Shown: in pieces, positions 23,082-25,187 of the stretch
Numbering within the stretch: the first letter of the stretch is position 1
Layout: the number at the start of each line of letters is the position of its first letter
Source: Curtobacterium sp. TC1
GTDB lineage: Bacteria; Actinomycetota; Actinomycetes; Actinomycetales; Microbacteriaceae
Length of the DNA stretch: 64,000 bases
Assembly (NCBI RefSeq): GCF_019844075.1
Contig: NZ_CP081964.1
Location: 2,418,001 to 2,482,000, forward strand
Direction of reading: 5' to 3'
Translations under genes and position numbers: made by a program
The notes under the pieces: generated by a model
Seen by the model: only the letters and a program-made list of their open reading frames with translations
What the model was told of the DNA's origin: nothing
The model's database searches: none

Positions 23082-23123
23082 TGATATTCATATATGCTGC
23101 TGTCATATCACCCGCCGGGTGAT
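23082..23123. promoter_or_regulatory. AT-rich nested palindromes ahead of the camelysin-like gene
   Basis: In a GC-rich genome this stretch holds TGATAT-N16-ATATCA (23082-23109), ATATG-N7-CATAT inside it, and the overlapping hairpin ATCACCC-GCC-GGGTGAT (23107-23123). It ends 10 bp before the AGGA ribosome site at 23134. The position and symmetry suggest a promoter with a repressor site. Confidence 0.5.
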
Positions 23124-23142: not shown

Positions 23143-23724
23143 ATGCACATCACCTCCCGCCACGGCCGCACCGCCGCCTGGATCGCCCTCCCCCTCGCCG
23201 TCGTCGCCAGCGGCGCGCTCATCGCCACGGCCTCGTACGCCGCGTTCTCCGACACAACCGACAACGCCACGAACAGCTGGCGCACCGGTGCCGTCGCACT
23301 GACCGACGATGACCAGGGCGCCGCGATGTTCGACGTCGGCGACCTCGTCCCCGGGTCGTCCGGCACGAACTGCATCACCGTCACCGCCGAGACCACGAAC
23401 CCCTCCACCGTCAAGTTCTACGTCGACGAGCAGACCGACGCCGACTCGCTCGGCCGGTACCTCGACGTGCAGGTGGAGCGCGGGTCCCTCGCGACCGCCG
23501 GTGACTGCAACTCCTTCGCCGCCGGCTCCACCGTCCACGACGGCACCCTCGCCGACCTCGCCGCGCACGACTCGTTCGGCACCGGCCTCGACGCGTGGGA
23601 GCCCGCCACCGGGACCGCGGACGCCACGTACCGGATCAGCTACACCCTCGCCGATGACGCCCCGAACACCGTGCAGTCGTCCGAGGCCGGCACCACGTTC
23701 GTCTGGGAAGCGCAGACCGACTGA
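23143..23724 (+). CDS. Camelysin/TasA-like secreted protein with SipW-type signal peptide
   Basis: This 193-residue protein has a basic start (HITSRHGRTA), a hydrophobic core (ALPLAVVASGALIATASYA) and the AAFSDTTDNATNSW stretch typical of SipW-dependent signal peptides. The rest is a beta-rich domain with NSWRTGAVALTDDDQG, SGTNCITVTAET and two cysteines (CITV and DCNSF). Family members form surface fibres or act as cell-surface metalloproteases; there is no clear zinc motif here, so a structural role is likelier. AGGA stands before the ATG. The dedicated signal peptidase starts 47 bp downstream. Confidence 0.8.
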   Translation: MHITSRHGRTAAWIALPLAVVASGALIATASYAAFSDTTDNATNSWRTGAVALTDDDQGAAMFDVGDLVPGSSGTNCITVTAETTNPSTVKFYVDEQTDADSLGRYLDVQVERGSLATAGDCNSFAAGSTVHDGTLADLAAHDSFGTGLDAWEPATGTADATYRISYTLADDAPNTVQSSEAGTTFVWEAQTD

Positions 23725-23771
23725 CCGTCCCGCCCCGCCCAGTGACCGCCACCGACCACGAGGAGCAGCCC

Positions 23772-25187
23772 ATGTCGCCCACCGTCACCCGACGACCCGT
23801 CCGGTGCTCCGGCGACCTCCCCCGGCTGCTCCTCGCGGTCTCGGCACGCACCGCACTCTGGTCGGTGCTCCTGCTCGCGGTCTGGGCATCGCTGCCGGCG
23901 ATGCTCGGGTGGTACGTCACGACCGTCGCCTCGGACTCGATGGCGCCGGGGATCCGCACCGGCGACGTCGTCGCTGCGATGCCCGTCGACGCCGAGTCCG
24001 TCACGCCAGGACGGGTCCTGCTGGTCGACGACCCCGACCACGACGACCGGCTCCGACTCCACCGCCTCGAGCGGATCGAGCAGGACGGCGACCTCCGCCT
24101 CCGCGGTGACGCGAACGCGGAGGCAGACCGGACCCCGGTTTCCCCGTCGGCCGTCCACGGCGTCGGCGTCCTCCGCTTCCCGGGCATCGGCCTGCCGACC
24201 GTGTGGGTCCGCTCCGGGTCCTGGACCCCGCTCGCGCTCACTGCCGCCGCCGCCGCGGTCGTCGCGGTACTGGCTCGCGTCGACCGGGACATCGTGGCCG
24301 GTCAGCCGTGCCGACGGTGCGGGACGCCACGGTGGGACCTGCACACACGAGCGTTGACCCCGGCCGGCGTGGTGCGTCCGACGCAGACCTCGTTGTCGGT
24401 CGTCGCAGCACTGGCTGCCACGACGATCGCCCTCAGCACGATGGGGGCAGCGGGGTTCAGCGGTACCACGGGCTCTGCCTCGTCGCTCCGCAGTCAGACG
24501 TTCGCGTGCTTCCACGATCCGGTGCCCGGGGCGGTGCTCGCGTGGGACTTCGCCGACAAGGGCACCCGGCTCGTCACGGACTCGAGCGGGAACGGCGCCG
24601 ACGGGCAGTTCGTCGGCGACGGCACCCGGACGGTCGGCAGCTGTGCGGACAACCCGCACGCGACCTTCGGGACGACCGGGAGCTCGGAGACCTGGGCCGT
24701 CACCGACACCGCCGTGAGCGCCCCGAACGCGTTCACGATCGAGGTCTGGTTCCGCACCACGGACACGGACGGCGGTCGGCTCTTCGGGTTCGGCTCCGAC
24801 CGGAACGCCGCGTCCACGCACCGTGATCGACACCTCTACCTCGACAGCAGCGGTCGACTCCGCTTCGGCGTCGAGGGATCGGGCACCCAGTTCAAGTTCA
24901 CCGTGGGATCGTCCGCGATCGTCACCGACGGGGAGTGGCACCACGCGGTCGCGACCTTCCAGCCGCGGTCGATGACCCTCTGGCTCGACGGCGTACAGCA
25001 GGGCACGCGGGCCGATGCCGCATCGCTCCGTCAGTACGACGGGCACTGGCGAGCAGGACGGCAGACCCTGGCGGGCTGGCCCGACGCCGGCGACTACGCG
25101 TACACCGGCGACGTCGACACGGTCCGTGTCCACGCCGCCGTGTTGGACGCAGCGACGATCGCAGCGCACCACGCCGCGGGACGATGA
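23772..25187 (+). CDS. SipW-type signal peptidase I fused to a LamG/ConA-like domain
   Basis: This protein has 471 residues. Residues 28-50 are a membrane anchor. The S26 catalytic domain follows with S56 in VASDSMAPGIRTGDVV and H97 in RLRLHRLERI (histidine in place of lysine, as in SipW and eukaryotic enzymes) and RGDANAEAD (112-118). A second membrane segment lies at about 152-168. A basic linker contains CRRC (180-183). Residues 207-232 (LSVVAALAATTIALSTMGAAGFSGTT) look like a SipW-type signal peptide, and 250-471 form a LamG jelly roll (AFTIEVWFRTTDTDGG, GEWHHAVATFQPRSMTLWLDG). AGGAG at 23761 fixes the start. It probably cleaves the camelysin-like neighbour, and perhaps itself. The reading frame is continuous. 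Confidence 0.82.
   Translation: MSPTVTRRPVRCSGDLPRLLLAVSARTALWSVLLLAVWASLPAMLGWYVTTVASDSMAPGIRTGDVVAAMPVDAESVTPGRVLLVDDPDHDDRLRLHRLERIEQDGDLRLRGDANAEADRTPVSPSAVHGVGVLRFPGIGLPTVWVRSGSWTPLALTAAAAAVVAVLARVDRDIVAGQPCRRCGTPRWDLHTRALTPAGVVRPTQTSLSVVAALAATTIALSTMGAAGFSGTTGSASSLRSQTFACFHDPVPGAVLAWDFADKGTRLVTDSSGNGADGQFVGDGTRTVGSCADNPHATFGTTGSSETWAVTDTAVSAPNAFTIEVWFRTTDTDGGRLFGFGSDRNAASTHRDRHLYLDSSGRLRFGVEGSGTQFKFTVGSSAIVTDGEWHHAVATFQPRSMTLWLDGVQQGTRADAASLRQYDGHWRAGRQTLAGWPDAGDYAYTGDVDTVRVHAAVLDAATIAAHHAAGR

Follow-up and report, generated by a model that had tools for sequence, protein, structure and literature searches.

Signal peptidases are usually encoded apart from the proteins that they cut. 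Within a 64,000 nucleotide stretch of the Curtobacterium sp. TC1 genome (NZ_CP081964.1, positions 2,418,001 to 2,482,000; hereafter the window, in which all coordinates given without a locus name are numbered) a single gene on the forward strand encodes an intact endoplasmic reticulum (ER)-type, SipW-like signal peptidase that continues in frame through an internal signal peptide into a LamG domain. We put at roughly two in three the probability that the resulting polyprotein frees its C-terminal part, and that this part starts or caps a TasA-like fibre.

The gene is one open frame running without interruption from 23742 or 23772 to 25187. The ATG at 23772 is probably the start, giving a protein of 471 amino acids, since a ribosome-binding site (GAGGAG, 23760-23765) precedes it and the orthologues in the genus are mostly called from the matching codon. 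With this start the numbering of S56 and H97 in the original prediction, which had claimed an in-frame join of peptidase and LamG, is recovered. The peptidase part (23808-24272) is made up, by AlphaFold2 (AF2) secondary structure, of a first transmembrane segment (TM1, helix 13-44), an extracytoplasmic S26 domain with catalytic strands to residue 136, and a second segment (TM2, helix at about 151-167). It carries the catalytic S56 (nucleotide 23937) and H97 (24060) and the conserved D113 and D119, within S-M, H-R and GDAN...D boxes around a Ser-His dyad that we take to be the mark of ER-type signal peptidase I (SipW/SEC11, S26B). S56, M57, H97, R98, D113 and D119 are invariant in all 45 sequences aligned, and amongst 172 S26 proteins 170 retain the catalytic residues, the exceptions (L216, L217) both being plain enzymes and every row classed as fused keeping them. 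The protein itself scores 36.8 bits with the NCBIfam signal peptidase model TIGR02228, below the curated cut-off of 51.85, whilst relatives of the same clade lie above it (L089 66.8, L108 55.5 and L013 54.7 bits) and all 45 aligned sequences match at E<=0.001; the equivalog for Bacillus SipW, NF046067, gives 31.5 bits under a cut-off of 190. A profile made from the alignment matches SEC11C in the PDB (7p2q_A, E 6.8e-10).

Behind the peptidase come a linker with a CRRC motif (residues 168-206, 24273-24389), which would be cytoplasmic on the predicted topology, and an internal SipW-type signal peptide (24390-24452) formed by a third hydrophobic segment (TM3, about residues 207-226) and Ala227 at P1, the junction reading GAA|GFSGTT. 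This is the second hydrophobic stretch, resembling SipW-type signal peptides, that had been described from the sequence. The predicted new N-terminus, G228-F229 to about residue 240 (24453-24491), may be donor-strand-like from comparison with the upstream neighbour and with published work on TasA, and is followed by a LamG domain of the ConA-like jelly-roll type (residues 246-471, 24507-25184). A domain search and structure prediction had been proposed as checks; the former gives Laminin_G_3 (PF13385) at E 1.3e-21 and 77.7 bits against a gathering threshold of 27.6, and the AF2 model, built on the 45-sequence alignment, shows both domains with confidence (mean predicted local distance difference test, pLDDT, 85.5; predicted TM-score 0.52). 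Between them TM3 forms a helix at 207-221, the pLDDT is below 50 at 191-194 and 196-205 in the linker and at 221-243 in the junction, and blocks from residue 251 on, through the LamG strands, average 81-98. If the N-terminus is inside, TM1 and TM2 return the chain to the cytoplasm ahead of the linker and TM3 would cross outward, and therefore the LamG domain probably ends outside the cell. Profile and fold matches of this part in the PDB are to LamG, neurexin and pentraxins. Foldseek matches to the lectin half of the binding domains of clostridial neurotoxins (8-14% identity in the rows shown) were set aside as the general jelly-roll fold, with no bearing on toxicity, and a likeness to the fimbrial protein TafC (NCBIfam; 13 of 45 fusions, best E 2.4e-9) was rejected, as the match in L089 is to the LamG part and reaches 22.4 bits against a cut-off of 410.

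It is the pattern of conservation around the junction that argues for a cut. When the positions between 150 and 299 filled in at least 35 rows of the 45 aligned fusions are compared, the two most conserved are F229 (F 42, Y 2, W 1) and A227 (A 40, S 5), with small residues also frequent at P3, position 225 (A 25, S 10, T 3, G 2 of 44), and with Arg-rich columns at 198-205, whilst TM3 itself drifts. At the level of the family the fused part thus has the basic n-region, hydrophobic core, small P3 and P1 and aromatic P2' of a SipW-type signal; the window protein has the hydrophobic core, G225, A227 and F229, its own n-region being weakly basic (VVRPTQTS) where most relatives have an Arg-rich linker. 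The TasA-type site is described as P1 Ala with P2' Phe (PMC10269814), and aromatics at P2' are there reported to be cut badly by E. coli LepB. Cleavage after Ala227 by a SipW-type activity is strongly, though indirectly, supported by these sequence features, because A227 and F229 match the TasA-type P1 and P2' and are conserved above all else while the hydrophobic segment drifts.

The fused architecture is recurrent and conserved, and no one-off. In Curtobacterium 24 continuous matches spanning both parts were found in 23 of 66 genomes among the matches listed, and in two further genomes (G043, G044) a single open frame holds both, making 25 of 66; no stop codon between the peptidase and LamG, which would have pointed to a sequence error, occurs among the matches listed in the fused genomes of the genus. 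A scan of named actinobacteria, from which 80 of 280 confirmed loci were taken as a sample biased towards the query, gave 80 called S26 genes from 77 loci, of which 62 genes include LamG and 18 do not; the three loci lacking a gene call (L074, L113, L118) were read by frame and are all fused. By our own reading the peptidase is fused to an internal signal and a further part in 79 of the 80 loci, the exception (L123) having a signal peptide with some 20 residues behind it. The organisms include Curtobacterium, Frigoribacterium, Schumannella, Amnibacterium, Cryobacterium, Modestobacter, Geodermatophilus, Blastococcus, Flexivirga, Nakamurella, Saccharothrix and Actinokineospora. The survey for the same fusion that had been suggested has found many others, and the enzyme is joined, as claimed, to a part that resembles its own substrate class, the fused part having a TasA-type site. 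In the literature covered, which mostly excludes subscription papers, none combines SipW with LamG, the one paper on signal peptidase I and a LamG domain is unrelated as judged from its title and the opening of its abstract, and by the same measure nothing on such fusions was found in the other papers listed.

A sample from the family was not drawn with the fusion. Sixty genomes from 59 genera were searched with TIGR02228, of which 44 matched, and all 81 matches outside the genus (L138-L218) were read; 17 of them, in 15 of 58 genomes, lead through an internal signal peptide into a secreted domain (own reading), the partners being LamG (3), Fn3-like (4), ice-binding (2), a type we label IGDP (7) and one other. 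The Fn3-like label is our own reading, a Pfam search of those partners having given no such match, whereas the ice-binding partners match PF11999 at E 3.3e-35 and 1.2e-26; in both cases (L198:1525-2997 and L185:1487-2938) a SipW-type peptidase is joined to the ice-binding domain via a SipW-type signal peptide. In a sample of 118 genomes from the class, the full-length LamG fusion is present in five, the genome of TC1 included, and two more peptidases are fused to other parts. One of these (L241) has Peptidase_S26 (27.3 bits, cut-off 22.9) and the bacterial Ig domain Big_7 (78.2 bits, cut-off 24.1) in one protein; the other (L233) has no named partner but matches the profile of the neighbour family described below. 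The class sample also holds unfused members (L238, L239, L240), one that is ambiguous because of N in the sequence (L242), and split operons in three genomes (L235/L243 in G165, L236 in G183, L244 in G143). In-frame TAG codons in two class genomes, at first candidates for recoding or decay, were rejected, as the frame had run past the natural stop of an unfused SipW into a convergent gene. Some fusions with the same peptidase and signal in front are very long: L130:4971-8384 (1137 amino acids), L241:1484-3805 (773 amino acids) and L113, of which the called part alone has 873.

Plasmids carry related fusions. Searches of plasmid and phage collections gave no place matching over 80% of the length of the window protein, which matched eight plasmid records, and in three of the eight the peptidase lies within a longer annotated gene. 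These are a 487 amino acid protein of a Pseudarthrobacter plasmid annotated as a glycosyl hydrolase (L246:4046-5509) and proteins of 820 and 852 amino acids of Arthrobacter plasmids annotated as Ig-like domain proteins (L247:3953-6415, L248:3926-6484), with signal motifs EAAFTG, LASFTA and SAAFTA respectively; in all three Micrococcaceae operons a protein of 200-208 amino acids matching the neighbour-family profile at 140 to 200 bits lies directly upstream. Annotation by one half hides the fusion, two of the plasmid copies being named for the Ig-like part only and one for the glycosyl hydrolase only. The partners thus vary between LamG, Fn3-like, ice-binding, bacterial Ig and glycosyl hydrolase parts. 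A gene annotated as ice-binding also lies some 1.2 kb behind the fusion in L248.

The phylogeny of the peptidase domains suggests that the fused enzymes belong together. In a tree of 134 S26 domains, made by a quick method whose sole support values are those of the Shimodaira-Hasegawa-like approximate likelihood ratio test (SH-aLRT), a branch supported at 99 divides the rows into two sets of 67. Two LepB-like proteins (L215, L218, own reading) were left out of the protein set, near-copies of at least 72% identity out of both trees and six long-branch rows out of the second; an automatic rule classed 104 of the 172 proteins as fused, and of these L194 (low-complexity tail) and L201, L202, L207 and L214 (a C-terminal form we label TMB) were not counted. 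In the one half 62 of 67 rows are fused (LamG 46, Fn3-like 13, ice-binding 2, Ig 1), four are unfused (L123, L238, L239, L240) and one is ambiguous, a share that is inflated as most of the fused rows come from the scan made with the fusion itself. The original prediction stated that SipW enzymes are normally separate from their substrates; this is true for the most part elsewhere, yet within this clade the fusion is the rule. Since partners of several types are intermingled in the clade, exchange of the part downstream of the signal is probable. The other half holds 49 plain, 3 split, 7 IGDP, 6 TMB, 1 Fn3-like and 1 other row. The IGDP fusions form a group of their own there (support 92) and have ordinary AxA sites by our own reading, which makes a separate origin of at least one further fusion probable. 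These SipW fusions are those of L166, L182, L183, L184, L196, L199 and L205, and in the two that were scanned (L196, L199) the IGDP domain has no Pfam match. The six TMB enzymes (L201, L202, L207, L211, L214 and L015:5498-6382), SipW-type with a different C-terminal stretch ending in a further hydrophobic segment, are one tree group with support 100.

Directly linked to the fused gene is a protein of 193 amino acids (23143-23724), encoded on the same strand 47 nucleotides upstream, which is a putative TasA/camelysin-like secreted protein with the SipW-type signal SYA|AFSDTT on the grounds of profile family, AF2 model and fold match. A protein of its family, as defined by a profile seeded with three proteins of the TC1 genome, lies directly upstream of 77 of the 80 S26 genes; amongst the remaining three, L087_1 and L098_0 have no same-strand upstream gene in the stretch examined and L130_8 has another gene. 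The only PDB fold match of the AF2 model (pLDDT 82.5) below E 0.001 is the TasA fibre, 8aur_A (E 2.1e-5, 13% identity), followed mostly by pilus subunits. The TasA model NF046066 matches 13 of 47 relatives of the neighbour at E<=1 (best 4.8e-5) and the window neighbour not at all; the camelysin family PF12389 reaches E 0.051, under its cut-off, with the neighbour at L013 in the same genome. It had been called a classic SipW-dependent protein. Its TIGR04088 SipW-cognate signal gives 15.1 bits under a cut-off of 19 (8 of the 47 relatives match at E<=1), but that the neighbour is a SipW substrate is supported by the family and the fold model.

What links the fused part to this neighbour is the sequence on the mature side of the predicted cut. 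Over the 13 residues that follow the aromatic, 45 LamG fusions and 47 neighbours resemble each other in register with a score of 18.74, against 3.64 for the best shifted register, and none of 20000 column permutations reaches 18.74. The same holds for 24 of the 27 fusions without LamG (11.61 in register against 3.79 for the best shift, none of 20000 permutations), a comparison from which L129, L120 and L115 were dropped as the rule found no aromatic, and in which L136, the L013 protein of TC1 and L241, visibly anchored at the wrong residue, were kept as they fell. The donor strand of TasA comprises residues 28-38 (PMC9674648), and TapA, thought to start the fibre, has an N-terminus that resembles it (PMC9674648, PMC10151520). 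Because the new N-terminus resembles that of the neighbour where TasA carries its donor strand, we infer by analogy that the freed domain plays a TapA-like part at the fibre.

The proposed sequence of events starts with one gene giving a membrane polyprotein of TM1, Ser-His signal peptidase, TM2, cytoplasmic linker, SipW-type signal (TM3) and LamG, which Sec would insert so that, going by the topology, peptidase and LamG are both outside. The cut after Ala227 would then be made by a SipW-type activity, the simplest source being the polyprotein itself, acting in cis or on another copy, and would release for secretion a LamG protein (about 25.8 kDa) with the N-terminus GFSGTT; the same activity would process the TasA-like protein encoded just upstream. 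The freed domain would probably attach to the end of the fibre as TapA is proposed to do in Bacillus, displaying a LamG head or, elsewhere, an Fn3-like, ice-binding, Ig or enzyme head.

This arrangement is like the tapA-sipW-tasA operon of B. subtilis in that an ER-type signal peptidase adjoins a TasA-type protein with P2' Phe (PMC10269814, PMC9674648, PMC10151520) and that a second secreted partner, TapA, has an N-terminus like the TasA donor strand (PMC10151520, PMC9674648). It differs in that B. subtilis has three separate genes, whereas in the fused operons the frame of the peptidase runs on into the second partner, for which LamG, Fn3-like, ice-binding, Ig-like and glycosyl hydrolase parts are all on record. 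SipW is also in one operon with camelysins in B. cereus (sipW-calY1-bc_1280-calY2), there as separate genes without fusion, as described in PMC10151520. Closer still are the split substrate-SipW-LamG operons (L015 in the TC1 genome, L243, L236, L244), which have the same kinds of part in the same order, LamG having its own N-terminal signal. In these LamG is a separate gene, overlapping the SipW gene (L015, L243, L236) or 31 nucleotides behind it (L244), and the peptidases, L015 with a group of its own, lie outside the fused clade; they are intact separate genes and not broken copies of the fusion. A bacterial precedent for signal peptidase cutting a membrane polyprotein at an internal signal sequence is FbcH of Bradyrhizobium, which does not itself contain the peptidase.

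Although split layouts exist, an assembly or frame error joining two genes is refuted by the same open frame in the genus genomes and named loci counted above. Who makes the cut is a different matter. Release of LamG by self-cutting had been suggested; release is strongly supported by the conservation of P1 and P2', whilst the cut may be made in cis, between copies or by another SipW-like enzyme, and self-cutting is the simplest but not the only choice, because fused genomes have other TIGR02228 matches. The TC1 genome has 10, including the window gene and one LepB-like gene (L017, own label), and all 33 fused genomes compared (22 of the 25 in the genus, 5 of the 15 in the family sample and 6 from the class sample) have at least two at E<=0.001. 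The junction might then be cut by a separate SipW or LepB and the fusion serve to fix the ratio of enzyme to substrate, in keeping with which the AxA sites of the IGDP fusions, without a P2' aromatic, could be cut by LepB. We regard this as unlikely, as the fused enzyme keeps all its catalytic residues, the P2' aromatic disfavours cutting of the LepB type (PMC10269814, for E. coli only), and in G163 (87% complete) the sole other match is of 27 bits at positions 11-74, a range and strength that are LepB-like. More improbable again is that TM3 is a lasting anchor, with the attached LamG recruiting or sensing partners for the peptidase; TM3 is hydrophobic and follows a stretch with at least two R/K in 70 of 80 cases, but such a role leaves unexplained why A227 and F229 are conserved above all while TM3 drifts, and why the mature side resembles that of the neighbour.

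Free secreted proteins commonly carry LamG, and the most serious competitor, at not far below even odds, holds that the cleavage is real, that the N-terminal likeness reflects SipW recognition or a copied signal module, and that LamG is a free adhesin. With E. coli LepB, the residues from P3 to P4' of the TasA site were important (PMC10269814), so the site reaches into the mature side, and shared descent of the signal region together with simple composition could explain some of the likeness. The likeness spans 13 residues past the aromatic, however, beyond P4', and is also found for partners of other folds. Several observations weigh against the proposed sequence of events as a whole. The TM-score of the neighbour to TasA is just 0.49, and L238, L239 and L240 are unfused members of the clade, so the fusion is not essential. 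The motif rule is weak when tested against shuffles (72 of 80 against 46.9 expected), and a scan with a neighbour-derived profile, anchored three residues early and mostly on P2 Tyr instead of P2' Phe, puts its best window at the junction for 52 of the 62 LamG fusions and for 11 of the 18 other fusions, yet in just 26 and 4 respectively is it also above the best of 30 shuffles; for the window protein it lies in the junction zone but out of register. Both tests were superseded by column conservation and the in-register comparison. The glycosyl hydrolase partner (L246) need not sit on a fibre and fits a freely secreted enzyme equally, and for this reason the free adhesin was raised slightly in our estimate and the fibre head lowered slightly. 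The fullest form of the fibre reading, a widespread actinobacterial SipW branch that self-releases a C-terminal domain whose N-terminal donor strand starts or caps the fibre of the neighbour, a single gene providing processing enzyme and exchangeable head alike, is only tentatively put forward, as somewhat doubtful. If true, enzyme and substrate on one chain would be a natural tool for comparing cis and trans cutting by ER-type peptidases, the fused clade would connect the enzyme gene by gene with the fibre system it serves, and it would show how actinobacteria vary surface display, ice-binding parts included.

The AT-rich palindromic region noted upstream of the operon exists as an inverted repeat, TGATAT-N17-ATATCA (23082-23110, no strand assigned), and is a possible operator. 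TGATATTCATATA is seen upstream in nine related loci (L058 to L066). A MarR-family regulator is encoded no more than four genes away from the fused operon in 34 of 80 cases, in 29 of the 34 as the next gene upstream and divergent, whilst outside the four-gene zone MarR-like genes number 1 of 179; the regulators L013:4384-4938 and L014:4652-5098 are matched by Pfam MarR_2. In the window a GNAT acetyltransferase gene is found at the place of MarR, and the upstream element is different. Elsewhere in the TC1 genome, a small contig of 164 kb (C1) that may be a plasmid, with transposase-like genes nearby (own label), has two more SipW-type genes with separate secreted genes (L011, L016), and a further SipW-like gene (L010:5347-5721), perhaps on a mobile element, lies where the codon model of the window calls few genes.
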